Assembly: GCF_000305935.1 (NCBI RefSeq)
Contig: NC_018870.1
Coordinates: 451,942-515,941, forward strand
Source of the DNA: Thermacetogenium phaeum DSM 12270
GTDB lineage: Bacteria > Bacillota > DSM-12270 > Thermacetogeniales > Thermacetogeniaceae
Direction of reading: 5' to 3'
DNA: 64,000 nucleotides
Position numbers and translations under genes: made by a program. This document shows positions 7,046 through 22,713 of the stretch, in pieces. How positions within the stretch are numbered: the stretch's first letter is position 1; every line of letters starts with the position of its first letter. Under the pieces are notes generated by a model. The model saw nothing but the letters and a program-made list of their open reading frames with translations. It searched no databases and had not been told where the DNA came from.

Positions 7046-7855
7046 TTATTTGGCGGCTTTGATATAAGAAGCCGCAAAGGCACCGTCGATGCTCTCCCAT
7101 TCCGCATCGGTGATCTTCACCCTGTTTCCGGCCAGAGACTTTAGCATTTCTTTTGTGTAACTGCGTGCCGGCTGCACTTCTATTTTCTGAAAACCGGCCC
7201 GGGACAGCATTTCCCGGCAGGTGTCGATATGCAGTGCACCGGCTATACAGCCGACCCACATTTCCGTCATCCTTCTGATGCTGTCGGGAACTTTTTTTAA
7301 GGCGAGGATATCCGCAATTGCCAGTCTCCCTCCCGGTTTCAGAACCCGGTAGACCTCCCGGAAGGCCTTTTCCTTGTCCCCGGAGAGGTTGATCACGCAG
7401 TTGGAGATCACCACATCAACGGCCTCATCGGGAAGAGGGATCTCTTCAATAAAACCCTTCAAGAATTCAACGTTGGTTGCTCCCATCAGTTCCCTGTTTT
7501 GATTGGCCAGTTCCAGCATTTCCTCGGTCATGTCCAACCCGTACACCTTGCCGCTTTGGCCGACATAGCGGGATGCCGCCAGCACATCAATCCCCCCTCC
7601 GCTGCCCAGATCCAGAACCGTTTCCCCTTCCTTTAACCCGGCAATGGCCAGGGGGTTGGCGCAGCCCAGGGAAGCATTGACGGCTTCAGCCGGTAAACCG
7701 TCGAGGTGTTCTTTGTAAAGCGATTCCGGATCGACGATGGGCGTGCAGCAAGACGGCCCGCAGCAGCAGGAAGATTTGCCTTGTTGCAGTTTGGCGGCGA
7801 TTTCACCGTAGTAATCCTTAACCTGATCTCTTATCTCTTTGCTTTTTTCACTCAT
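7046..7855 (-). CDS. arsM: Arsenite methyltransferase (ArsM-like)
   Basis: A roughly 269-residue class I SAM methyltransferase. It has the N-terminal cysteine cluster CCCGPSCC near residue 32, SAM-binding DLGSGGGID near residue 83, and the two further conserved cysteines of ArsM in NCVINLS and GCIAGAL. ArsM methylates As(III) to mono-, di- and trimethyl arsenicals using S-adenosylmethionine; the cysteines coordinate the metalloid. ATG 7855 is preferred, seven bases behind AAGGGGGA; a GTG directly upstream is also open. It follows a MarR-type regulator by 15 bases, so the pair is probably one autoregulated unit. No arsB, arsC or arsR is adjacent. Confidence 0.85.
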   Translation of the reverse strand: MSEKSKEIRDQVKDYYGEIAAKLQQGKSSCCCGPSCCTPIVDPESLYKEHLDGLPAEAVNASLGCANPLAIAGLKEGETVLDLGSGGGIDVLAASRYVGQSGKVYGLDMTEEMLELANQNRELMGATNVEFLKGFIEEIPLPDEAVDVVISNCVINLSGDKEKAFREVYRVLKPGGRLAIADILALKKVPDSIRRMTEMWVGCIAGALHIDTCREMLSRAGFQKIEVQPARSYTKEMLKSLAGNRVKITDAEWESIDGAFAASYIKAAK

Positions 7856-7870
7856 CACAGTTCCCCCTTC

Positions 7871-8314
7871 TTAACAGCAGTGTTCGTTTTGTATGGCTTT
7901 GATGAGCAGTTCCAGGCTTTCCAGCACCTGTCTTCTCTTATCTTGAGGTAGAGCTTGATAAATGTTCCGGTAGCACTCCGCCATGCGTGATTCGATAGCG
8001 GACAGCATTCTGCTCCCGGCTTCGGTCAATCCGATTTTGACGTAGCGCCGGTCCTCCGGATCCTCTTCTCTCTTGACCAGGCCCTGCTCGACCATTGTGT
8101 TGACCGTTCTGCTGACCGTGCTTTTGTCCAACCCCAGCAGTTCGGCCAGATCGTTGAGGGAGAGGCACCCTTTTTCGCCTATTGCAACAAGAGCGTGACA
8201 CTGGCTGTAGGTTATCCCGCAGCAGGAAGACTCACTTTTGTCGAGCAGCCCGATTTTCCCGGTCAGCAGCCGGAGCAGTTGACGCAGGCGAAGCAGGTCG
8301 CTAGAAGTATCCAA
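7871..8314 (-). CDS. MarR-family transcriptional regulator, Cys-rich
   Basis: A 147-residue winged-helix regulator. The MarR core is clear: SLNDLAELLGLDKSTVSRTVNTM recognition region, then a wing with KREEDPEDRRYVKI. The start is TTG 8314, seven bases after a perfect AGGAGG. Upstream in-frame codons would run into the promoter. Cysteines lie just before the DNA-binding domain (SCCGITYSQC) and at the very C-terminus (HCC), so thiol or metalloid sensing is plausible given arsM 15 bases downstream. It probably represses its own promoter through the inverted repeat that overlaps the -10 box. Confidence 0.82.
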   Translation of the reverse strand: MDTSSDLLRLRQLLRLLTGKIGLLDKSESSCCGITYSQCHALVAIGEKGCLSLNDLAELLGLDKSTVSRTVNTMVEQGLVKREEDPEDRRYVKIGLTEAGSRMLSAIESRMAECYRNIYQALPQDKRRQVLESLELLIKAIQNEHCC

Positions 8315-8334
8315 AAGATCACCTCCTGCTAATA

Positions 8335-8364
8335 ATTGTACTACACAACAGATGTAAAATGCAA
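8335..8364 (-). promoter_or_regulatory. marR-arsM promoter with overlapping operator
   Basis: On the minus strand, TTGCAT and TACAAT are separated by 18 bases, ending about 20 bases before the TTG start of the regulator. An inverted repeat TTGTGTAGTACAA (8336-8348) covers the -10 box and is a good candidate MarR operator. Confidence 0.55.
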
Positions 8365-8366
8365 AC

Positions 8367-8537
8367 GTCCCTCTTCCTCTGGGCTTCTCTTTTGATGACT
8401 TCATCGAAGGGGTGGAGAGGGATGTGATCACCATGGCCTTTCAGCAGTACGGGAGCTCTCGCAGGGTTGCCAGGGCGTTGAAGATCAGCCAGACCAAAGC
8501 ATCACGGCTGATCCGGAAGTACTGTAGCCAGGCTTAA
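8367..8537 (+). pseudogene. C-terminal remnant of a sigma-54-dependent activator
   Basis: An open stretch with no start codon that encodes about 56 residues ending at TAA 8535. Residues read GFSFDDFIEGVERDVITMAF, then QQYGSSRRVARALKISQTKASRLIRKY. This is the Fis/TyrR-type helix-turn-helix found at the C-terminus of sigma-54 enhancer-binding proteins. The AAA+ ATPase part is missing, since the frame is closed by a stop at 8355. The marR promoter abuts it, so the rest was probably lost when the arsM-marR unit arrived. Immediately downstream are an intact inverted repeat and a sigma-54 promoter. Confidence 0.65.
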
Positions 8538-9038: not shown

Positions 9039-10529
9039 GTGACGAGGAGAAACAAGAAGGCAGGTATAACTTCTGTAAATGGATTTGGGCTGAATGTCTT
9101 TACAGAAGACGAGTTGGATATGATTCACTATGCCACATTGGAACTGTTGTGGGATACCGGAATTAAGGTTGAGTCCAGAGAGGCTTTCGAAATATTCCTG
9201 GGCGGTGGGGCAAAAGGGGAGTGGCATGGGAGTTACGGTATAGTAAAGATTCCATCTTACGTAGTTGAGGAGTGCATCCGCTGGGCGCCGAGAACGGTGG
9301 TTTTCTACGGGAGAGACGCTGAAAAAGATTACGCAGCAGAGCCCGGGCGTGTGGGATTCAGCACCTTTGGTGAATGTGTCCAGATTATCGACCCGGAAAC
9401 AAAAGAGGTCAGGAGGTCGGTGAAGAGCGATCTCGCTGGGGCTACTTTGATGTGCGACTACTTGGACGAAATGGTCGTGGTAGAACGGGCTCTCTGTTCT
9501 TCCGACCAGTATCCCGACACGCAGCCGCTGCACAACTACGAGGCAATGGTCGCCAACACCAGCAAGCACTGCTTTCTCGGCTTCGGCAGCGGTGAGAACG
9601 CCAAAAAGATCATTGCAATGGCCGCGGCATGCGCCGGAGGAATGGATAAGTTCCGAGAGCGACCCATTGTCACCGCTTTCGTCTGCCCCACCAGTCCTTT
9701 AACACTCGTTCAGAACTGCTGCGATGTTATAGTTGAGTGTGCCCGGGGAGGCGTTGGGCTCGCCATCATCCCAATGGCTCTTTCCGGCGCTACGGCACCG
9801 GTAACGCTGGCCGGAACTATTGTGCAGCACAATGCCGAAGTCCTAGGTGCTCTTATTCTGGCCCAGCTGACCAGAAGGGGCACCCCCTGCACCTACTCCA
9901 GCTGCAGCACGATCATGGACTTGAGATTTACTACCACAGCGGTGGGTGCCCCTGAATATGGCATTATCAGCGCCGGGCTGGCCAGGCTCGCCCGGTATTA
10001 CCGGCTGCCCAGTTGGGTGGGAGGCGGCCATTCGGACAGCAAGCTCCCCGACGCCCAGGCCGCCTACGAGTTTTCGCTCACTGCCGCAGTGGCGGCTCTG
10101 GCCGGAGCAAATATCGTTTACGGCGCCGGTTGCCTGGAGTCAGGGCTGACGTTCGATTACGCCAAACTGCTGATGGACGCCGAGCAGATCAGAAACATAT
10201 TTCAGGTCCTCAAAGGGATCGATGTGAGCGATGAAACGATTGCCTTGGATGTTATCAAAGCTGTGGGCCCCGGCGGCGAGTTTATGACTCATCAGCACAC
10301 CTTCCGGCACATGAAGGCCATGTCTATGTCCGTTCTGTTTGACAGGAGGAACCGCGCCTCCTGGATGGAGCGAACGAAGGGTAAGGACCTGACGGAGAGG
10401 GCCTACGAAGAGGCGAGGCACGTTTTGGCAACCCACAAGCCCGCCCCGCTTCCGGCAGGTGCGGCCGAAACCATGAGAACCATTATCGAAGAATATGAAG
10501 CGGAGCTCAAAGCCAGAAAAGGAAACTGA
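9039..10529 (+). CDS. MttB-family (trimethylamine methyltransferase-like) corrinoid methyltransferase
   Basis: A 496-residue TIM-barrel protein of the MttB superfamily. Members transfer a methyl group from a quaternary or tertiary amine to a corrinoid protein. There is no in-frame TAG: the segment GGGHSDSKLPD, where I believe archaeal MttB carries pyrrolysine, has His. It is therefore a non-Pyl member like the glycine-betaine, carnitine or proline-betaine enzymes; the substrate is not readable. GTG 9039 follows GGGAGG by six bases, and an upstream TTG at 9024 overlaps that site. No corrinoid protein or MtgA-type partner is adjacent. Expression should depend on sigma-54. It converges on the RuBisCO-like operon. 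Confidence 0.88.
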   Translation: MTRRNKKAGITSVNGFGLNVFTEDELDMIHYATLELLWDTGIKVESREAFEIFLGGGAKGEWHGSYGIVKIPSYVVEECIRWAPRTVVFYGRDAEKDYAAEPGRVGFSTFGECVQIIDPETKEVRRSVKSDLAGATLMCDYLDEMVVVERALCSSDQYPDTQPLHNYEAMVANTSKHCFLGFGSGENAKKIIAMAAACAGGMDKFRERPIVTAFVCPTSPLTLVQNCCDVIVECARGGVGLAIIPMALSGATAPVTLAGTIVQHNAEVLGALILAQLTRRGTPCTYSSCSTIMDLRFTTTAVGAPEYGIISAGLARLARYYRLPSWVGGGHSDSKLPDAQAAYEFSLTAAVAALAGANIVYGAGCLESGLTFDYAKLLMDAEQIRNIFQVLKGIDVSDETIALDVIKAVGPGGEFMTHQHTFRHMKAMSMSVLFDRRNRASWMERTKGKDLTERAYEEARHVLATHKPAPLPAGAAETMRTIIEEYEAELKARKGN

Positions 10530-10557
10530 GGCTTTGTGCTTGATCTTGGCATGGAAA

Positions 10558-10579
10558 GGAGGGGGTGCCGACCCCCTCC
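10558..10579. terminator. Bidirectional hairpin between convergent genes
   Basis: GGAGGGGGT and ACCCCCTCC form a perfect nine-base-pair stem with a four-base loop between the mttB homologue and the end of the minus-strand operon. U tracts are poor on both sides, so it may act mainly as a 3'-end stabiliser. Confidence 0.5.
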
Positions 10580-10604
10580 CGGACAGCGATTCCCGGACGT
10601 CGGT

Positions 10605-11444
10605 TCAGCCGGAGCCTTTTTTCATCCTCTTGTACCGTCTGGTGATCTCCGTAACGGCCGTTTCCGTCGGCATCCGTTCCCCGCTGGATCCGGAGGCGTA
10701 ACCGGCGGCGTCTGTGTGTAGGAGTGAGTATTCCGCAGTTTCGACGTCCTTGAAGGGCCCCCCGTGGGTGAGGACTATGATCTCGGGGTTCACTTCCCGG
10801 GCTGCCCTGCTGATTTCCCGCACTTGCCGGGCGGCTTCTTCCAGGGTCTGGGCTTTTTTAGCCCCTGTCAGCCCCCCGGCGGTGACACCGACGATGGCGC
10901 CGATGACATCCGCTCCGGCAGCGGCCATAACCCGTCCCTCCTCAGGGGTGAAGGCCCAGGCGACGGTAAACACATCCTTTTCGTGAGCGGTTTTGATCAG
11001 CTCTACCTCCCTGGAAAAACCCAACCCAGCCGCTTCCAGTTGGGCGGCGAATTCACTGCCGTAAATCCCCACAAAGGGCTCATTGGTGATCCCGGAGAAC
11101 CCCATCCCCAGCAGCCGGTCGATAATAGCCTCCATGTCCAGCCTGGGGTCGTGGGCGCCGACTCCTGCGATGCAGGGGGTTTCCTTGACGGCGGGAAGGA
11201 CTTCCGCGGCCATCCTGATAACAAGCTCGTTGGCGTTTTCGTAGGGAAGCCAGGCCAGTAAAGAGGGCTGTGCCTGCATCCGGTAGTAGGCGGTGGAGTA
11301 AACGGCGATGATATCCGCTCCCCCCAGTTCGGCGCACCGGGCCGTTAGTCCGGTGCCTGCCCCGAACATCAGGAGGGGACGTCCGGCATCGCTCTCTTTC
11401 CGCAGGCGTTCCAGCACCTGCCGGCGTGTGAAGCTTTTGGCCAC
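10605..11444 (-). CDS. PEP-hydrolase-like TIM-barrel protein (copy 1)
   Basis: A 279-residue protein of the phosphoenolpyruvate hydrolase-like/BtpA-type TIM-barrel family. It starts MAKSFTRRQVLERLRK, with GAGTGLTARCAELGGADIIAVY near residues 27-48 and THGGPF near residue 225. In plant Tm-1 proteins a domain of this type is fused behind an ATP-binding domain of the kind encoded by the neighbouring gene at 11485-12828. Here the two domains are separate genes 40 bases apart. It is the last gene of the RuBisCO-like operon and a paralogue of 13674-14516. The catalytic reaction of the bacterial family is not established; a C-C or phosphoenol chemistry role is inference. Confidence 0.78.
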   Translation of the reverse strand: MAKSFTRRQVLERLRKESDAGRPLLMFGAGTGLTARCAELGGADIIAVYSTAYYRMQAQPSLLAWLPYENANELVIRMAAEVLPAVKETPCIAGVGAHDPRLDMEAIIDRLLGMGFSGITNEPFVGIYGSEFAAQLEAAGLGFSREVELIKTAHEKDVFTVAWAFTPEEGRVMAAAGADVIGAIVGVTAGGLTGAKKAQTLEEAARQVREISRAAREVNPEIIVLTHGGPFKDVETAEYSLLHTDAAGYASGSSGERMPTETAVTEITRRYKRMKKGSG

Positions 11445-11484
11445 CGGGACCGCACCTCCTTTCTCCCGGTTGACTGAAGAGATG

Positions 11485-12828
11485 TTAAAATTTCAGTACG
11501 TAGGGGAGATCGTGATGGCTCCCCTTCCTCCATTTGCCGGCCAGCATCTCGTCGAGCAGCTCTGCCATGAGATCGGCGAATTCCGGTTCGTTCAGGTGCT
11601 TGTCGACGAGAAGCACATCCAGGTTCGGTTTGTTTCTGTCGATTACCTTGCGTAAGGCGGCTACGAAATGGCCGGCCCGCAGTGACCATTGGGGATGGTC
11701 GGGGTCGGAAGCCCAAACCGGCCCCGGCCCGGGGCCTGCCCATCCCAGAGCCTTGTTGGGAGCGGGGAGGTCGCAGGCCCCCCAGCCTCTCATCGGCACG
11801 CAAAGGACGGTGGGACCCGTGGCGGCGTTGAGCTTGTTGGCGATGTGTTCGCCGACCTTGTACGCCTCCTCTGCAGAGACGCCGACGCAGGTTACGGTGG
11901 GGTTGTGGATGTAAAGACCGCGGCCTGGCTGGTCCGTTTCTTTGAGCAGTCTTTCGGGAACCGTCTCCTTGGGCCCGAAGTTGATCAGGTCGAGGCCGCC
12001 GGGGGCGACGACCTGGGGAATACCCATCTGCGCTGCGGCGGTCAGCCGGTCGGGGCCTGCATCGAGAACACCTCCTAAAAGGTGATCTCCGATCTCGTGT
12101 GTTGTGATATCCAACACGCCGACGATGTAGCCGTCCCGGATCAGCTCTTCCAGCGACCGCCCGCCGCTTCCCACGGCGTGGTTGATCAGGACGTCGTAAC
12201 CCTTTTCCTCAAAGTACCGCGAGGCCCGCAGCACACAGGGGGTAGTTACCCCGAACATCATGCACCCGATCAGGGGGCGTTCCTCACCCGCCTCTAGCTC
12301 GGGTGCGCTTGCCATTCCGACAACGGCGCCGGCGGCGTTGTTGAGGATGCGGCGGGTCACTTTATTGAGCCCGGCCTCGGCGATAGGGTACATCATGCAG
12401 ATGTCCTTGGTGCCCACATAAGGGCTGACATCCCCGGAAGCCATGGTGGTCAGCATCAATTTGGGGATGCCGATGGGGAGCGACTGCATGATGCGGGTGG
12501 CCATGCTGGCGCCCATGGAACCACCGTAGGCGATCATCCCGTCAAGCTTCCCTTCCTCGAGGAGTTCGGCCGCAATCTTTTTGGCGCCCTCGACGATGAT
12601 ATCGGATGCCTTCCCGCGGTCCAGGGAAAAGACCTCCTCTTTGTTGCGCCCGATTTTCTGCAGCACTGCGCCCACACCGATATCCGCCCAGCCGACTTCA
12701 TCTCCGACGCTCAGTTCCAAAATGGTCGGTTCTCCTCCGGCAGCCTTCACCCGTTCGGCGAGGTACTTGATTTCCTGTCCTTTGGTGTCGAGGATGCCGG
12801 CCACGAGGATCTGTGGTTTTCCGGTCAC
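11485..12828 (-). CDS. Tm-1-like ATP-binding domain protein (UPF0261)
   Basis: A 447-residue protein of the UPF0261/Tm-1-like family, starting VTGKPQILVAGILDTKGQEI. Glycine-rich segments GGSMGASMATRIM and SGGRSLEELIRDG lie in the two Rossmann-like halves. GTG 12828 follows AAGGAGGAG by eight bases and overlaps the stop of the ComB-like gene in a GTGA arrangement. Members bind ATP and often sit beside, or are fused to, PEP-hydrolase-like barrels, which is what the downstream gene encodes. The pair may activate and then cleave or isomerise a small acid, but no reaction is proven. The upstream part of the open frame overlaps the ComB-like gene and is not coding. Confidence 0.8.
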   Translation of the reverse strand: MTGKPQILVAGILDTKGQEIKYLAERVKAAGGEPTILELSVGDEVGWADIGVGAVLQKIGRNKEEVFSLDRGKASDIIVEGAKKIAAELLEEGKLDGMIAYGGSMGASMATRIMQSLPIGIPKLMLTTMASGDVSPYVGTKDICMMYPIAEAGLNKVTRRILNNAAGAVVGMASAPELEAGEERPLIGCMMFGVTTPCVLRASRYFEEKGYDVLINHAVGSGGRSLEELIRDGYIVGVLDITTHEIGDHLLGGVLDAGPDRLTAAAQMGIPQVVAPGGLDLINFGPKETVPERLLKETDQPGRGLYIHNPTVTCVGVSAEEAYKVGEHIANKLNAATGPTVLCVPMRGWGACDLPAPNKALGWAGPGPGPVWASDPDHPQWSLRAGHFVAALRKVIDRNKPNLDVLLVDKHLNEPEFADLMAELLDEMLAGKWRKGSHHDLPYVLKF

Positions 12829-13601
12829 CTGGTGTTCTCCTCCTTTCGTGATCGATTTATGAAGCAGCAGGGAGATCTGGCGATGAGAATAGGGACTACT
12901 TCCGTAGTGTTGAGCCTGCTGCACAACTCAAGATCTACCGTGCGGTTGATCTCTTTGAGGCGCCGGCCGCTGAAGGATTCCGCGAAGGCTGCCATGATGT
13001 CCGGGTAGGATTGATAGAGCCGGCCGGCTGCCTGAGCGGCGTCGGATAGGGTGACTTCCAAACCATCTTTTTCTGCGAGCAGGCGCAGGGTTTCCACAAG
13101 GTATCCTGCGCAGAAGGCATCATCCAGCACAAACTTCCCCTTTTCTCCGGCGCAGACGATGCCGATGTCTGTAGAGTATCGGCGGGAGAGTTCCAGCGCG
13201 CTTTGGCAGCAGGCGTGGGCGTTGAGGAAGCACCCTATCAGCACCGCCGGAGCGGAGGCCACCGCGGCAACAGTTCTTGTGCCGTTGGTGGTGGTGAGAA
13301 CCGCAGCCCTGTCACCCGGCGGAAAACCCTCGACCTCGCTGGGGGAGTTGCCGAAGTCGAATCCTCGGACTGTGAGGCCGTTGCGCTCCCCTCCCAGCAG
13401 GAGCCCCTGAGACCGCGCCAGGGATCGGGCATCGGCGACCTCTTCGACGGTGTAAACCAGCCGGCATCTCTTATCGAGCAGGGTGACGATGGTGGAGCTG
13501 GCCCGCAGCACGTCCACCACAATGCAGGCCATTTCCAGAAACTCCGGGGAAACCTCCGCCGGTGCCAGAGCAACATCTATCGTCAGCTTATCTCTTCTCA
13601 T
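12825..13601 (-). CDS. 2-phosphosulfolactate phosphatase-like protein (ComB family)
   Basis: A 258-residue ComB-family protein with the characteristic CIVVDVLRASSTIVTLL, LGGERNGL and LTTTNGTRT motifs near residues 26, 69 and 102. ComB removes phosphate from 2-phosphosulfolactate in coenzyme M synthesis, but bacterial homologues occur without that pathway, and no comA, comC or comDE is visible here. It lies between the PEP-hydrolase-like paralogue and the Tm-1-like gene in a coupled operon. It may therefore dephosphorylate a related acid-phosphate intermediate of the RuBisCO-like pathway. The ATG at 13601 has AGGGAGA ahead of it. Family assignment is firm; substrate is open. Confidence 0.8.
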   Translation of the reverse strand: MRRDKLTIDVALAPAEVSPEFLEMACIVVDVLRASSTIVTLLDKRCRLVYTVEEVADARSLARSQGLLLGGERNGLTVRGFDFGNSPSEVEGFPPGDRAAVLTTTNGTRTVAAVASAPAVLIGCFLNAHACCQSALELSRRYSTDIGIVCAGEKGKFVLDDAFCAGYLVETLRLLAEKDGLEVTLSDAAQAAGRLYQSYPDIMAAFAESFSGRRLKEINRTVDLELCSRLNTTEVVPILIARSPCCFINRSRKEENTR

Positions 13602-13673
13602 TTCCAGTCTCCCTGTTCCTTACGTTCCTTTCCTGATTGCTTCTTATAAGGTCCTCTTAAGGTTAGCTTCTTC

Positions 13674-14516
13674 CTATTTGAGAGGGATGTCCTTAAACTT
13701 CTTGACCGCCTCTGCCAGGGGCTTCTCCACGGGAATCCGCTCGATGCTGGACGCTCCCAGGAACCCTACGGCTTCCGTGTTCTTGTAGATGTAGGCCGTG
13801 TCTTCAGGAAGGGCAATGGGGCCGCCGTGGGCAAAAATGAGAACATCGGGGTTCTTCTCCCGCGCCGCTTTGGTCATTTCGTTGATCAGGGCGGCGGCGC
13901 CTTCCAGGGTCATCTCTTCCTCTGCGTATTTAGACCCGATGGAGCCTCCCCTCGTCAGACCCATGTGGCAGATTAAAACATCCAGCTTGGCTTCCCCGAC
14001 GAGCGCCGCCTCTTCGACGTTGAAGGCGTAACCTAGAGTGAAGAATCCCAGCTCGGAGGCGAGTTTCAGGGCTTCGATCTCCTTGCCGTAGCCCATTCCG
14101 GTGTCTTCCAGTTCCCTGCGGAATCTCCCGTCGATCAGGCCGACGGTGGGGAAGTTCATCACACCTGAAAAGCCCAGCTCCAAAAGGTGCTTAAGGTATG
14201 GCCTCATCTCCCGGGTGGGATCGGTTCCGCAGATGCCGGCGATCATCGGCGTTTCCTTCACGACCGGCATGACGCGGTTGGCCAGATCGATGACGATCTG
14301 GTTGGCATTTCCGTAAGGCATTAATCCGGCCAGCGACCCGTTGCCGTCCATCCTGTAGAGGCCGGAGTTGTAGACGCCGATGAGGTCGGCACCCCCTCGC
14401 TCGGCGAACTTGCCGGAGATCCCCGTTCCCGCTCCGGCGATGATCACCGGTTTTCCCTCAGCGATGGTTTTTTTCAGCCGCTTCAGTACCTCTGCCCTGC
14501 TGTACTGCTTCGCCAT
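13674..14516 (-). CDS. PEP-hydrolase-like TIM-barrel protein (copy 2)
   Basis: A 280-residue paralogue of 10605-11444, aligning over its whole length: GAGTGISGKFAERGGADLIGVYNSG at residues 27-51, FAHGGPI near residue 229, and GASSIERIPVE near the end. Both copies begin MAK with similar spacing, so a duplication inside the operon is likely; divergence is substantial, which suggests separate substrates or a heteromeric complex. It lies 23 bases downstream of the RuBisCO-like gene and 72 bases before the ComB-like gene. The ribosome site GGAGGAGG is strong. Confidence 0.78.
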   Translation of the reverse strand: MAKQYSRAEVLKRLKKTIAEGKPVIIAGAGTGISGKFAERGGADLIGVYNSGLYRMDGNGSLAGLMPYGNANQIVIDLANRVMPVVKETPMIAGICGTDPTREMRPYLKHLLELGFSGVMNFPTVGLIDGRFRRELEDTGMGYGKEIEALKLASELGFFTLGYAFNVEEAALVGEAKLDVLICHMGLTRGGSIGSKYAEEEMTLEGAAALINEMTKAAREKNPDVLIFAHGGPIALPEDTAYIYKNTEAVGFLGASSIERIPVEKPLAEAVKKFKDIPLK

Positions 14517-14539
14517 GTTAATACCTCCTCCTTTGGATT

Positions 14540-15856
14540 TTATTGTTTGATTTCGAAAAGGGCCTGCTCCTCATCTTCCATGAGGCCCCAGGCCTCGATG
14601 GCGCTTTTCAGTTCGGGATGCTGCTCCGCCGCTTCCCGGATGGGGATTCCCTGCAGGGCGGCATCGATGGCCTGCCGCATGGCCTTTCCTCCTGCTACCG
14701 GCCCCATGGGGTGGCCGTGGATGGCTCCACCTGCTCCCAGGATGCAGTCTTTCCCCAGGTCGCGAATAATGGCAGGCACGACGGCCGGCATGACGCCTCC
14801 TCCTGGCATGGGGAAGGTCGGCTTGAAGTGGAGCCATTTCCCGAGAAGATGGTGCCCGATCTGGAGATAGCGCTCCCGCAGGAAGGGGAATTTTCCGAAG
14901 GGGCTGGGGTAGACCACGATATCCGCGCCGGCCAGGCGCGCCAGTTTCCCCAGGATCAGATAGGAACTGAGCCCGGAATAGGGGGATTCGTACATGGTTC
15001 CGGCAAAATCCAGATGGGCGAGGATGGGAACATTGATCTCCGGGTCCTCCGCTAAAGACTGGAGGGCGGTGATCCCCGCTGTGAGGTAGTTGATCATCAG
15101 GGCGTTGGCCCCGGCGTCAAGGGCGCGCTTGGCGTTTTCTTTTACTTTGTCCGCCCTGTCGGTGATGTTGACGGTGTAGAGGACCTTGTTGCCGGTTTCT
15201 TCATAGTAGCGCCTGGCTTCAGCCATATAGAGCTTAACCCTTTCCACCATCGGGCAGAAGGGGGGATCGGCGATCAACTCATCGTCTTTAACGATATCAA
15301 CTCCTCCGCGGATTGCCTGGGAGAAGAGCCTGGCTCCGACTTCAGGGGTGTAACCTGTGCACGGCTTGATCATGTTATTCAGGAGAGGACGCTCGGGGAT
15401 TCCCAGCAGTTCTCTGATCCCCTGGGTGCCGAATTTGGGCCCTTTGAAGGATTTAAGAAAGCTTTTGGGGAATTTCAGGTCCAGAAGCTTCAGCTTCCCC
15501 GACATGGAAATGTTGCCGATTACCGTGCTGAGGAGCATCGGGATTTGGGGGCCGAAGTTCACGGCGGGGTAAGCCAGCTGGAAGATGAACTGTCTCGCTT
15601 CCAGGTTACCCGGCACTTCGAATTCGTGACCGGGGACCTCGTAAATGCCCACCACCTTGGCGACGTGCTTTTCCCGCATCTCCGGCGTTTCCTCGGGAAC
15701 CGGTACCCAGGTGCCGGTCGTCTGCTCCACGGCAATGGCGCTGATTTTTTTGACGATATCGGCGCCCCTCCCCGTTTCCAGATAATAGGTGGCGATCACG
15801 TACCCTCCTTCTTCCTCGATTTGCTCATGTAGGGCGAGCATGGCAAGTTCGGACAT
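14540..15856 (-). CDS. RuBisCO-like protein (form IV)
   Basis: A 438-residue RuBisCO large-subunit homologue. The carbamylation/metal region GGVDIVKDDELI keeps Lys, Asp and Glu. The loop with the catalytic lysine reads MIKPCTGY, so the first Lys (Lys175 in plant numbering) is present, while the second (Lys177) is Cys. Loop 6 and the HRAMH segment are replaced (AHLDFAGT), and the phosphate-binding loops are MPGGGVM and AGGAIHGHPMG. It is therefore a RuBisCO-like protein, expected to enolise, isomerise or decarboxylate a phosphorylated or thio-sugar acid rather than fix CO2. It leads a five-gene operon with two PEP-hydrolase-like barrels, a ComB-like phosphatase and a Tm-1-like protein. No methionine salvage genes adjoin. 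Confidence 0.88.
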   Translation of the reverse strand: MSELAMLALHEQIEEEGGYVIATYYLETGRGADIVKKISAIAVEQTTGTWVPVPEETPEMREKHVAKVVGIYEVPGHEFEVPGNLEARQFIFQLAYPAVNFGPQIPMLLSTVIGNISMSGKLKLLDLKFPKSFLKSFKGPKFGTQGIRELLGIPERPLLNNMIKPCTGYTPEVGARLFSQAIRGGVDIVKDDELIADPPFCPMVERVKLYMAEARRYYEETGNKVLYTVNITDRADKVKENAKRALDAGANALMINYLTAGITALQSLAEDPEINVPILAHLDFAGTMYESPYSGLSSYLILGKLARLAGADIVVYPSPFGKFPFLRERYLQIGHHLLGKWLHFKPTFPMPGGGVMPAVVPAIIRDLGKDCILGAGGAIHGHPMGPVAGGKAMRQAIDAALQGIPIREAAEQHPELKSAIEAWGLMEDEEQALFEIKQ

Positions 15857-15970
15857 ACTGTTCTACCTCCTTGTACTTTAGAGTTAGTATGGTTTCTTTT
15901 TAGTAAAATAAATCGCGATCTCCAACAGCTGTAGTAAAACGGAAGATGCTGGCAGCCGGCCGAAGAAAGC

Positions 15971-16036
15971 AAAAAATCCCACCCTCCAGGCGAACAGCCC
16001 GTTAGAAGGTGGGACTCACTCTCCTCTCTTGTCCCA
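15971..16036 (-). promoter_or_regulatory. Terminator with overlapping antiterminator hairpin in the RLP operon leader
   Basis: On the minus strand a ten-base-pair stem with one G-U pair (TCCCACC...GGTGGGA, bases 15977-16014) is followed directly by six T residues, an intrinsic terminator about 115 bases before the RuBisCO-like gene. Just upstream, TGGGAC (16031-16036) can pair with GTCCCA (16010-16015), which overlaps the 5' arm of the terminator. The two folds exclude each other. This is the layout of an attenuator. A GlpP-type antiterminator is encoded immediately upstream. It could alternatively be only the terminator of that gene. Confidence 0.6.
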
Positions 16037-16199
16037 AACAGCCTATTCAATTTCTGGTACCGTCGGTTGCGGTATATCCGATTTACCTAATTCTATCTTC
16101 CTGAAGGAAAATCCTCTTTCTTGACCAAGAAAATTTTTTAGAATTTCTTCCTCAATATATAAATGTCAAATAACTTGCCTAACTTGCCCGGGCAGAGTG
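16037..16199 (-). other. Leader/intergenic region upstream of the RLP operon
   Basis: An AT-rich stretch with a minus-strand TTGACA near 16166-16171 but no well-spaced -10. It contains GGTA..TACC and CGGT..ACCG dyads that could be part of a folded leader. No gene is supported. Confidence 0.35.
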
Positions 16200-16799
16200 T
16201 TAAAGCTTCAAGTTCCAGAGAGCATCAGCGCTTGTGTTTACGGCTACGGCACCTGCTTTAAGGATCGCCATGACCTCCTCCGGGGTTTTGACCAACCCCG
16301 CTCCTATTAACGGCTGGCTGAAGTGCTGCCGGAGGAACGGTATCACCCTTGAGGCCATCATCCCGGGAAGAAACTCGATGAAATCGGGGTTGGACATCTG
16401 CAGGACTTTGAGACCGCTTTCGAGGGAAGGGGAGTCATGGGCAAAGAGGCGGTGGATGGTGATCAGATGCTCCTTTCGCCCCTCGGAGATCAAATGGCGG
16501 TTCGGCGTGACGATTCCGTCGGCTCCGGCCTTTTCCTTTAAGAACCTGACTGCCGCAGCATCACGGCCCAGCCCGTCGATCAGATCGATATGAACCAGGG
16601 CCACCTTGCCGGCCCTGTGCAGTTCCTGCACCAAGGATTCGATGTTGAAGATGCTCCCGGAGGAGAGCAGGGCTACCCTGGCGTTGCTTTTCAATAAGAA
16701 GGGGAGCTGTTCCTCCCGTCTGAGAGAGGGAATCACGGGATGGTTCTGGAGCAGATTCAGGAGCTGGGTCTTTCGTTCGGTGTGAGCCACGGCATCCAC
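16200..16799 (-). CDS. GlpP-family RNA-binding antiterminator
   Basis: A 199-residue protein of the glycerol-3-phosphate-responsive antiterminator (GlpP) family. Motifs are PVIPSLRREEQLPF, HIDLIDGLGRD, ADGIVTPNRHLI, IEFLPGMM and PLIGAGLVKTPEEV. In Bacillus, GlpP with glycerol 3-phosphate binds the glpD leader and prevents termination at an intrinsic terminator. No glpF, glpK or glpD lies nearby. Instead, the next feature on the same strand is a leader with a terminator and an alternative hairpin in front of the RuBisCO-like operon. I infer that this copy controls that operon and senses a phosphorylated intermediate of it. Confidence 0.82.
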   Translation of the reverse strand: MDAVAHTERKTQLLNLLQNHPVIPSLRREEQLPFLLKSNARVALLSSGSIFNIESLVQELHRAGKVALVHIDLIDGLGRDAAAVRFLKEKAGADGIVTPNRHLISEGRKEHLITIHRLFAHDSPSLESGLKVLQMSNPDFIEFLPGMMASRVIPFLRQHFSQPLIGAGLVKTPEEVMAILKAGAVAVNTSADALWNLKL

Positions 16800-21067: not shown

Positions 21068-21469
21068 ATGAACGGCAAACGATGGAAACGATCGGCCACA
21101 ACAGTATACAACATCGGCTACCACCTCATCTGGTGCCCTAAGTACCGGCGCAAAGTCCTGGTAAGTGAAGTAGCTGAGCGGCTGAAGGAGCTGCTGCTCC
21201 AAAAAGCCCGGGGAATTGGAGTGGAAATCGTTCAGATGGAGGTCATGCCGGATCATGTGCATCTCTTCGTAAAAACCGATCCTACCAATAGTCCTCATTT
21301 TATCGTCCATCAGTTGAAAGCCTATACCTCCAGGGTGCTGAGAAAAGAGTTTCCTTTCCTGAAAAGCCGGCTTCCGTCCCTGTGGACGCGCTCGTACTAC
21401 TGTGAGTCGGTCGGACACATATCGGAAGAGACCATCAGGAAGTACATTGAGGACCAGAAAGGAAAGTAA
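21068..21469 (+). CDS. tnpA: IS200/IS605 transposase TnpA (Y1 HUH)
   Basis: A 133-residue Y1 transposase. The HUH motif is DHVHLFV near residue 61, and the catalytic tyrosine is in IRKYIEDQ near residue 127. The start region YNIGYHLIWCPKYRRKVL is typical. It cuts and rejoins single-stranded DNA at the hairpin ends. tnpB starts five bases after its stop. The full length and intact motifs suggest it is active. Confidence 0.92.
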   Translation: MNGKRWKRSATTVYNIGYHLIWCPKYRRKVLVSEVAERLKELLLQKARGIGVEIVQMEVMPDHVHLFVKTDPTNSPHFIVHQLKAYTSRVLRKEFPFLKSRLPSLWTRSYYCESVGHISEETIRKYIEDQKGK

Positions 21470-21474
21470 CCGGT

Positions 21475-22713
21475 ATGACCAAGGCGGAACAGATAAAAAA
21501 TACTCTCCAGGAGACAAGGCAACGCAGAGAAACCCAAAAACCCGCTGTGTACGAGTTGAAGCTCCAGAACCTTTCCAAAAGGAAATCTGAGGTGCTCAGG
21601 AAAGCATTTCTAGAAGCAAAGTGGCTGTACAACTGGCTGGTATCGGACACGGAGCGGCTGGATACTCCCGCCAACAAGGTAAGCGCGGTTGAAGTCAAAG
21701 CGGGAGATAGTTATGAGGAGAGGGAGCTGACCGTCCTCGGCTCCCAAATAAAGCAGGAGATAGCAGACCGGCTCAAAGACAACCTCCGGGTGCTCGGGAA
21801 ACTGAAGAAAAACGGCCAGAAGGTCGGAGCTCTTAAATGTAAAAGGTTCGTCAATTCGATACCGCTCAAGCAGTACGGCGTGACGTACAGCTTAAACTTT
21901 GCCCGGAACAGGGTTAGGATTCAGAAGCTGGGGAAGTTCCGCGTGCTGGGTCTGCACCAGATACCTGCTGATGCGGAGATAGCGAACGCCGTGCTGGTGC
22001 GAAAGCCTAGCGGCTACTACCTGCACGTGACGTGCTACCTCCCGAAAGACAGTCGTACTTCCCCGAATCCGGTCGGCAAAGACATCGGGATAGACTTTGG
22101 CGTCGGCTCGAAGCTGACGTTATCCAACGGGATCAGGATGGACTTTGAAGTTCACGAAACGCCGAGGTTGAAGCAACTCCAGAGGAAGCTGGCCGGAACA
22201 CAAAAAGGCTCCAGAAACAGAGAAAGGATCCGGTTTCTTCTGAGGAAGGAATACGAAAAGCTGAACAACAGGCGTAAAGATGCTCAAAACAAGGCCCTGG
22301 CGTTTCTGAAGATATACCGGAAAGTAGTATTTCAGGACGACTGTGTGAAGGGGTGGTCGGTGCTTTTCGGCAGGCAGGTCTACTCCTCGGGGATAGGCGG
22401 ACTGAAGTCAAGGTTGAGGACCAGCCTTGAGACGCCTGTCGTTGTGGAGAGAACGGAGACCACCACCGGAGAGTGTTTTGCCTGCGGGAAAAGGCGCAAT
22501 CTCTCCCTGTCGGACAGGGTAATTGAGTGCGAGTGCGGCTGGAAGTGCGACAGGGACGTGAACGCCGCACTTGTCATTCTGAGAAAGGGGCTTGGCCTGG
22601 GTCCTGAACAGGCCGTAGGGCTGGACCGGCCCGAACTCAAGCCTCCGGAGAGGGAGGCCGCTGCGCGGATACTGGGGAGCAACCCCTACATCCGCGTAAG
22701 CTTTCCTCGGTGA
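21475..22713 (+). CDS. tnpB: TnpB RNA-guided nuclease-like protein
   Basis: A 412-residue TnpB. RuvC-I Asp is in GIDFGVGSKLTLS. The central acidic motif reads FQDDCVKGW, where most relatives have FQDEN, so the expected catalytic Glu is Asp. The zinc finger is CFACG...CECG, and the final Asp is in CDRDVNAA. TnpB proteins cut DNA next to a short target motif guided by an RNA from the element's right end, which favours element retention. The Glu-to-Asp change may weaken cleavage or be tolerated. The ribosome site AAAGGA lies about nine bases before the ATG. Confidence 0.88.
   Translation: MTKAEQIKNTLQETRQRRETQKPAVYELKLQNLSKRKSEVLRKAFLEAKWLYNWLVSDTERLDTPANKVSAVEVKAGDSYEERELTVLGSQIKQEIADRLKDNLRVLGKLKKNGQKVGALKCKRFVNSIPLKQYGVTYSLNFARNRVRIQKLGKFRVLGLHQIPADAEIANAVLVRKPSGYYLHVTCYLPKDSRTSPNPVGKDIGIDFGVGSKLTLSNGIRMDFEVHETPRLKQLQRKLAGTQKGSRNRERIRFLLRKEYEKLNNRRKDAQNKALAFLKIYRKVVFQDDCVKGWSVLFGRQVYSSGIGGLKSRLRTSLETPVVVERTETTTGECFACGKRRNLSLSDRVIECECGWKCDRDVNAALVILRKGLGLGPEQAVGLDRPELKPPEREAAARILGSNPYIRVSFPR

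Follow-up and report, generated by a model that had tools for sequence, protein, structure and literature searches.

An operon built around an IKPCTG-clade RuBisCO-like protein, with a candidate GlpP-type leader switch, in Thermacetogenium phaeum

Gene content of the locus

The window, a stretch of 64,000 nucleotides of the T. phaeum DSM 12270 genome, contains on its minus strand a GlpP-family gene followed by a leader with two competing hairpins and then by the genes of a RuBisCO-like protein (RLP), PEPh1, ComB, Tm1, and PEPh2, in this order (Table 1). All the genes named in the first-pass annotation of this DNA lie at the positions listed and show strong family matches in profile searches. 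Tm1 starts at a GTG (12828) that is preceded by a AAAGGAGG site and overlaps the stop codon of ComB by 4 bp (GTGA). Copy-number checks, made one protein family at a time, showed that the RLP, ComB, and the GlpP-family protein are each the sole member of their family in the T. phaeum genome. ComB matches its Pfam family, with a score below the cut-off of the TIGR00298 equivalog model (154.9 versus 175 bits).

Table 1. Features of the T. phaeum operon and its convergent neighbor (positions in the window)
Feature	Position	Strand	Evidence
GlpP-family (G3P_antiterm) transcription antiterminator	16200..16799	-	PF04309, E 1.4e-56, 191 bits
Leader RNA switch, antiterminator/terminator	15971..16035	-	Conserved competing hairpins
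RLP, 438 aa, IKPCTG clade	14540..15856	-	PF00016/PF02788, E 8e-51
PEPh1, PEP_hydrolase-family TIM barrel, 280 aa	13674..14516	-	PF09370, E 3e-113
ComB-type phosphatase (2-phosphosulfolactate phosphatase family)	12825..13601	-	PF04029, E 4e-67
Tm1, UPF0261/Tm-1-like, putative kinase	11485..12828	-	PF06792/PF23189, two domains, E 4e-68 and 6e-52
PEPh2, divergent second PEP_hydrolase-family barrel, 279 aa	10605..11444	-	PF09370, E 7e-101
MttB-family methyltransferase, outside the system	9039..10529	+	PF06253, E 4e-93; TIGR02369, 623 bits

The operon converges on an MttB-family gene, and it had been suggested that the pathway might follow a demethylation by this protein. Although the convergent geometry is correct, a functional link is not upheld, because MttB adjoins the operon in no relative examined, about seven MttB paralogues are encoded in the genome, and trimethylamine is not a growth substrate of T. 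phaeum (PMC3551663). We therefore excluded MttB from the pathway. The gene in the window has no in-frame TAG, and so does not qualify as a pyrrolysine-containing methyltransferase; two of the genomic paralogues carry one TAG each.

Recurrence of the operon in other genomes

The order RLP-PEPh1-ComB-Tm1-PEPh2 is found at 21 orthologous loci in close relatives (mostly Syntrophomonadaceae, truncated contigs counted), and the same order without ComB at eight further loci. Because of this shared order, the recurrence of the operon is far beyond chance, and the co-occurrence of the five genes in other genomes, on which the first-pass reading depended, is borne out in many of them. Carriers are the thermophilic acetogen T. 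phaeum together with some 28 anaerobes related to it. More distantly, a Caldisericota operon likewise combines an RLP with Tm1, two PEPh proteins, and ComB. In the ComB-less operons, a HisJ-type PHP or HAD phosphatase often takes its place; two of these (L068 and L069) have no replacement phosphatase on the contig. At two other loci (L059 and L060), the RLP lies beside Tm1 with no PEPh detected, and at a third (L134) it lies beside PEPh with no Tm1 detected, so the steps of the pathway are not necessarily strictly sequential.

The PEPh1 proteins of both operon types, with and without ComB, group in a single clade, and so do the Tm1 and the PEPh2 proteins, whereas the RLPs of the two types do not (AU p 8e-5). 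A single PEPh1-Tm1-PEPh2 cassette has thus adopted two different RLP lineages. Plasmid-borne Tm1-PEPh pairs have mixed neighbors (sugar or branched-chain ABC transporters, cupin, SRPBCC, and fumarylacetoacetase-like proteins), which point to no single substrate. No link between an RLP and UPF0261, PEP hydrolase, or ComB was found in the literature searched, and the main texts of the T. phaeum physiology and proteome papers searched do not discuss the RLP, ComB, or UPF0261.

Clade and active site of the RuBisCO-like protein

Few reactions have been assigned to RuBisCO-like proteins. In our tree, the T. phaeum RLP falls within a large IKPCTG clade that spans Bacillota, Chloroflexota, Caldisericota, and archaea, apart from both MtnW and OiaX, as the first-pass reading required. 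To our knowledge, no activity has been described for the IKPCTG clade or for PEPh proteins. As first read, the metal site (Lys190/Asp192/Glu193) is retained and the IKPCTG motif puts Cys166 at the position of RuBisCO Lys177. When residue roles are carried over from RuBisCO by alignment, Glu60, Asn123, Lys175, the carbamate/metal site (Lys201/Asp203/Glu204), His294, and Lys334 are kept. The catalytic set is nevertheless incomplete (Lys177 is Cys166, Arg295 is Leu282, His327 is Val315, and Ser379 is Gly352), and RuBisCO's ligands to the second phosphate are missing.

One alternative is an OiaX-like acid-sugar pathway, in which a kinase and an RLP decarboxylase would lead into tetrulose-phosphate metabolism. 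OiaX decarboxylates 3-oxo-isoapionate-4-phosphate (PMC6302742), a mono-phosphate, as is probably the substrate of the T. phaeum RLP. In both systems the RLP gene lies beside a known or putative kinase gene (DUF1537 kinases, the family of OiaK, adjoin OiaX-type RLPs in three of four records), Lys334 is kept, and the P1 pocket is largely kept. RLPs near the IKPCTG clade that occur with triosephosphate-isomerase-like and RpiB/EryI-like genes also favor such a pathway, but Glu60 and the loop-6 Lys are no longer present in these RLPs. Moreover, neither a DUF1537 kinase nor tetrulose isomerases lie beside the operon, the kinase family is a different one, and the OiaX system lacks PEPh barrels, of which the T. 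phaeum operon has two. The RLP is only about 30% identical to OiaX, scores 186 bits against a cut-off of 700 for NF042437, and is separate from the OiaX/DUF1537 rows, which form a clade of their own. Model score and clade rule out membership in OiaX, and we consider an OiaX-like pathway unlikely.

A second alternative, an anaerobic variant of methionine salvage in which the RLP would be the 2,3-diketo-5-methylthiopentyl-1-phosphate enolase MtnW (form IV, YkrW type) and ComB would replace MtnX, is suggested by the pairing of an enolase with a phosphatase. MtnW proteins are also the closest solved structures (e.g. 2oek), MtnW-type rows are about 40-45% identical to the RLP and share its fold, its carbamate-Lys/Asp/Glu site, and the P1 phosphate pocket, and the closest NCBIfam model, PRK09549, is just passed (412 versus 409 bits). 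However, the TIGR03332 model is failed by far (378 versus 513.6 bits), and the RLP lies outside the MtnW-type clade (100% support) and has other partner genes. The general base of MtnW, Lys98 in Geobacillus kaustophilus numbering, is Asn115 in the RLP; this position is Asn in every row of the IKPC clade and Lys in all MtnW rows. Unlike MtnW, the RLP has the IKPC motif, and it keeps RuBisCO's Glu60 and Lys334 (Glu44 and the loop-6 Lys322 in the RLP), both of which MtnW has lost. Finally, about 0.6 Mb away the T. phaeum genome holds an IF-2B-family (MtnA-type) gene with a class II aldolase gene immediately after it, which suggests an RLP-free DHAP shunt. On residues, clade, and this separate gene pair we reject methionine salvage, which is very improbable.

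Partner enzymes, proposed pathway, and regulation

IKPCTG-clade RLPs elsewhere are paired with FGGY kinases, or with a GAT-type PTS, class II aldolase, and dehydrogenases. A family search found no FGGY kinase in the T. phaeum genome. Since these RLPs usually have such a phosphorylating partner, it is probably Tm1 that supplies the phosphate here, as a kinase. Tm1, in which both UPF0261 domains are present, matches 9mpy (phmmer, E 8e-69; matched in the fold search too), the UPF0261 protein Saro_1862 crystallized with acetovanillone. In Novosphingobium aromaticivorans, acetovanillone is acted upon by the single-component kinase MarK (PMC13101465). Saro_1862 is very likely MarK, which argues for the kinase reading. 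Tm1 and 9mpy have the GGSMG, TMASG, DAGPDR, and HNP motifs in common, and the Tm1 model superposes moderately on 9mpy (TM 0.5-0.6), perhaps as a result of domain rotation; no further enzyme family was convincingly matched in the fold search. The family match behind the original label, ATP-binding Tm-1 domain, holds, and its reading changes to that of a putative kinase phosphorylating its substrate inside the cell, so that the imported phosphorylated or methylated acid first envisaged is not required. Plant Tm-1 (3wrw) belongs to the same two-domain family. In contrast to MarK, Tm1 would work alongside an RLP and a pair of PEPh barrels. MarK substrates are phenols, and the other partners of IKPCTG-clade RLPs point to sugar phosphates, which counts against the pathway favored below.

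PEPh1 is the most conserved protein of the operon. Its model (pLDDT 88) best matches Mll9387 (PDB 2p10), a PEP_hydrolase-family protein of only putative function with the same barrel and about 48% identity, followed mostly by methylisocitrate lyase and PEP mutase structures (E about 1e-8 to 2e-10, TM about 0.6, 11-16% identity), which places PEPh1 in the superfamily with the PEP mutase/isocitrate lyase barrel fold. A point of difference from Mll9387 is that the operon encodes members of two subfamilies, PEPh1 and PEPh2, each in its own clade. Asp44, Glu137, and Asp179, candidate metal-binding residues by sequence, are invariant in PEPh proteins; the candidate metal-binding Asp of the GTDP motif is Asn in some PEPh2 proteins.

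These findings support the first-pass view of an unassigned pathway centered on an enolizing-type RLP with phosphorylated intermediates, and the operon matches no RuBisCO-like pathway known to us. We propose, with roughly even confidence, a self-contained catabolic operon running from kinase to RLP to lyase to phosphatase under its own GlpP switch. Tm1 would phosphorylate a hydroxylated substrate with ATP, probably a small oxo- or hydroxy-acid or a polyol-derived compound rather than acetovanillone. The mono-phosphate would enter the RuBisCO-type P1 pocket of the RLP and be enolized with Mg2+ on carbamylated Lys190. Because Lys164 and the loop-6 Lys322 are retained, carboxylate chemistry would be most likely, either a decarboxylation like that of OiaX or a cleavage by hydrolysis. 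Both PEPh barrels would then cleave C-C bonds in the manner of isocitrate lyase/PEP mutase, and ComB would remove the phosphate. More tentatively, the retention of Lys334, Glu60, and Asn123 suggests that the RLP might be a true form IV carboxylate-handling enzyme, carboxylating or decarboxylating the mono-phosphate made by the Tm-1-type kinase, which would define a new RLP pathway and a metabolic origin for the Tm-1 family.

Tm1 could instead act as in an Hpe/Acv-like aromatic pathway, phosphorylating a phenolic ketone that the RLP, replacing a biotin carboxylase, would carboxylate before dephosphorylation by ComB. The family that Tm1 shares with Saro_1862/MarK, the retained Lys334, and the kinase-carboxylase-phosphatase order of Hpe (PMC9618137) favor this. 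Against it, the other partners of IKPCTG-clade RLPs act on sugars or polyols, the RuBisCO carboxylation residues are incomplete (Lys177, Arg295, and His327 are lost), and syringate does not support growth of T. phaeum. We know of no aromatic trait common to the operon hosts, and this pathway appears highly improbable.

The kinase-RLP-lyase-phosphatase pathway would give an enzymatic context to the UPF0261 and PEP_hydrolase families, as putative kinase and lyase of one pathway. In the plant virus-resistance protein Tm-1, a UPF0261 domain is fused to a PEPh barrel. The wide range of the IKPCTG clade, its retention of residues lost by known form IV enolases, and its recombination with different kinase modules make it well suited to testing how RuBisCO-type chemistry diversified.

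The first-pass annotation did not name the GlpP-family gene or the leader. The gene adjoins the operon at six of the scanned loci. The leader contains an antiterminator stem-loop (GGGACnAGAGAnnAGAGTrAGTCCC) whose 3' arm is shared with an intrinsic terminator, GTCCCACC...GGGTGGGA-TTTTTT. Its MFE is -27.7 (z -2.8). Ten independent leaders preserve it, with changes that compensate for one another, and an Rfam search gave no match other than sub-threshold chance hits. The dedicated GlpP-like protein may sense a phospho-metabolite of the pathway and stabilize the antiterminator hairpin, turning the operon on. As with GlpP, the glycerol-3-phosphate antiterminator, the protein belongs to the same family and a terminator-containing leader lies downstream, but here it serves a single operon that has an RNA element of its own. 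An ordinary GlpP regulon for glycerol or lipid-derived glycerol-phosphate, which this adjacency could suggest, has very little probability, since T. phaeum has no FGGY glycerol kinase, Syntrophomonas-type and ComB-less operons lack GlpP (the latter mostly have a SorC-type sugar-phosphate regulator instead), and the leader is exclusive to this operon. The leader is a compact candidate GlpP-type RNA switch, probably for a ligand other than glycerol-derived glycerol-3-phosphate; its exact motif occurs in 10 of 399 genomes of the phylum, in one copy each and always at this operon.

Operon conservation and the adjacent MttB gene

The T. phaeum genome consists of one chromosome of 2,939,057 bp, which contains the window. 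The RuBisCO-like protein (RLP) gene is followed by those of a PEP_hydrolase-family barrel (PEPh1), a ComB-type phosphatase, a UPF0261/Tm-1-like protein (Tm1) and a second barrel (PEPh2), with intergenic gaps of 23, 72, -4 and 40 bp, respectively. RLP, ComB and the antiterminator GlpP are each the sole member of their family in the genome, and PEPh1 and PEPh2 are its only PEP_hydrolase genes.

Genes and leader of the RLP operon (window coordinates)
Feature	Position or length	Strand
GlpP-family antiterminator	16200-16799	-
Leader, GlpP to RLP	343 bp	-
RLP	14540-15856	-
PEPh1	13674-14516	-
ComB	12825-13601	-
Tm1/UPF0261	11485-12828	-
PEPh2	10605-11444	-

An RLP alignment, run against ~85,000 species genomes, yielded 80 loci. 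At an RLP identity of 71-90%, PEPh1 lies behind RLP in 21/21 loci, Tm1 and PEPh2 come next in all 19 with sufficient contig, and 17 of 20 loci have ComB. Eight more loci, with an RLP identity of 53-56% and a PEPh1 identity still at 75-81%, display RLP-PEPh1-Tm1-PEPh2 without ComB; their hosts include Formimonas warabiya, Desulfoscipio geothermicus and gut Bacillota. The five genes form a real unit, as the first-pass annotation proposed; confidence is high that this operon constitutes a genuine system, conserved but so far uncharacterised. The same annotation also tentatively linked the convergent corrinoid methyltransferase homologue MttB to the pathway. No MttB homologue was found close to RLP in these loci or in a further set of genomes searched, and a family search of T. 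phaeum gave seven full-length MttB matches and one fragment. MttB is therefore a chance neighbour. The window gene (9039-10529) scores above the NCBIfam trimethylamine (pyrrolysine) equivalog cut-off, yet lacks an in-frame TAG, one of which is found in each of two other T. phaeum copies (loci L192 and L193); the trimethylamine (pyrrolysine) name would be a mis-annotation here.

Leader RNA and regulators

The leader between GlpP and RLP holds GGGACAAGAGAGGAGAGTGAGTCCCACCTT...GGAGGGTGGGATTTTTT. GTCCC is common to a GGGAC...GTCCC stem and the terminator stem (-27.7 kcal/mol, z -2.8), so that the antiterminator and terminator stems, both of which need it, are mutually exclusive. Across ten leaders the loop AGAGAnnAGAGT is almost unchanged, and stem changes are compensated (A-U for G-C in locus L069; terminators of L069 and L014). 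Of 399 phylum genomes, 10 contain the exact motif, each of them once and always ahead of the RLP operon. Because it is confined to this operon and GlpP is the only one in the genome, the two are likely to be a dedicated regulator-RNA pair. The element is absent from Syntrophomonas-type subgroup operons; in most of the ComB-less group, a SorC-type regulator stands in for GlpP.

RLP active site and phylogeny

Residue roles at the RLP active site are those of established RuBisCO enzymology. In the alignment, RLP keeps (RuBisCO numbers in parentheses) Glu44 (60), Thr49 (65), Trp50 (66), Asn115 (123), Lys164 (175), the metal site Lys190/Asp192/Glu193 (201/203/204), His281 (294), Lys322 (334), Gly354, Gly376 and Gly377, whereas Lys177, Arg295, His298, His327 and Ser379 of RuBisCO are replaced by Cys166, Leu282, Ala285, Val315 and Gly352. 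By these residues the P1 pocket is preserved whereas the P2 pocket has been lost, and a substrate with a single phosphate is therefore expected. The methionine-salvage enolase MtnW has lost Glu60 and Lys334, both of which the window RLP retains, and relies on Lys98 at a position held by Asn in the clade of the window RLP. Lys334 is kept in OiaX, a decarboxylase (PMC6302742), as in the window RLP, which suggests that the latter acts at a carboxylate. In an IKPC-motif subclade (L055, L056, L059, L060 and L167), Gly occupies the Glu60 position and the loop-6 Lys is lost; these RLPs may be plain isomerases. Some have triosephosphate-isomerase-like, RpiB/EryI-like, FGGY kinase or sugar ABC genes as neighbours, suggesting tetrulose-phosphate isomerisation. 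Elsewhere in T. phaeum, an IF-2B-family (MtnA-type) gene directly followed by a class II aldolase (chromosome positions 1051702-1053170) would fit a DHAP shunt that handles methylthioadenosine or 5'-deoxyadenosine without an RLP.

In the RLP tree, the MtnW-type clade (100% support), the OiaX/DUF1537 group and form I are separate from a 42-row set in which the window RLP stands with Chloroflexota, archaeal and other Bacillota RLPs, with modest support at the deepest node among these groups and several long branches. Three IKPC rows (L047, L049, L053) branch just outside this set. Partners within it differ by subclade: an FGGY carbohydrate kinase, a GAT-type PTS (also with class II aldolase and dehydrogenases) or the Tm1 cassette. 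A single clade of window-type and ComB-less-operon RLPs was rejected (AU p 8.3e-5); PEPh1 (99%), Tm1 (98%) and PEPh2 (99%) of both operon types are monophyletic. This is most simply explained if a single PEPh1-Tm1-PEPh2 cassette joined two RLP lineages, and that the pairing arose more than once speaks for a functional link. At loci L083-L140 (Chloroflexota, Baldrarchaeota, Bathyarchaeota and others), an FGGY (xylulokinase-like) kinase lies directly ahead of RLP, often with a saccharopine-dehydrogenase-like protein or GSA-aminomutase-like aminotransferase next, another RLP context without an assigned pathway.

Partner enzymes and a candidate pathway

FGGY kinase and PTS are missing just where Tm1 is present, which points to Tm1 as the phosphorylating enzyme; the T. 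phaeum genome has no FGGY kinase. The nearest solved relative of Tm1 is Saro_1862 of Novosphingobium aromaticivorans with acetovanillone bound (9mpy). According to a 2026 paper (PMC13101465, citing JBC 2025), acetovanillone catabolism in this species begins with a single-component kinase, MarK, which we infer to be Saro_1862. In plant Tm-1, a UPF0261 domain and a PEPh-type barrel are fused, and in prokaryotes the two families co-evolve (PMC5028733). The PEPh1 model (pLDDT 88) best matches the fold of 2p10, followed by methylisocitrate lyase and PEP mutase (TM ~0.6), as would be expected of a lyase/hydrolase acting on C-C or P-C bonds. Since ComB does not reach the equivalog cut-off for 2-phosphosulfolactate phosphatase, its presence does not imply sulfolactate. 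ComB-less operons often have another phosphatase alongside, of the HisJ-type PHP family in five loci and of the HAD family in two; no substitute was seen next to some, and ComB is present again in a distant Caldisericota cluster. Although HAD genes are common, this swap supports dephosphorylation as a pathway step.

The most defensible mechanism would run from kinase (Tm1) through RLP and lyase (PEPh) to phosphatase, via a mono-phosphorylated intermediate. Our confidence is moderate for these enzyme roles and low for the substrate. Methanol, acetoin, 2,3-butanediol and ethanol support growth of T. phaeum, whereas trimethylamine and syringate do not (PMC3551663), so that the operon's natural substrate may be a minor compound or an internal one. 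A distant proteobacterial cluster (L134, 1440-8745) combines PEPh, an acetolactate-synthase-like TPP enzyme, a second PEPh, RLP and a TRAP-type solute-binding protein/transporter, a hint at organic acids. Also in the window, as read from sequence, are an ArsM-like methyltransferase gene preceded on its own strand by a MarR-type regulator (7046-8434) and an IS200/IS605-type transposase pair (TnpA-like and TnpB-like; 21068-22713).
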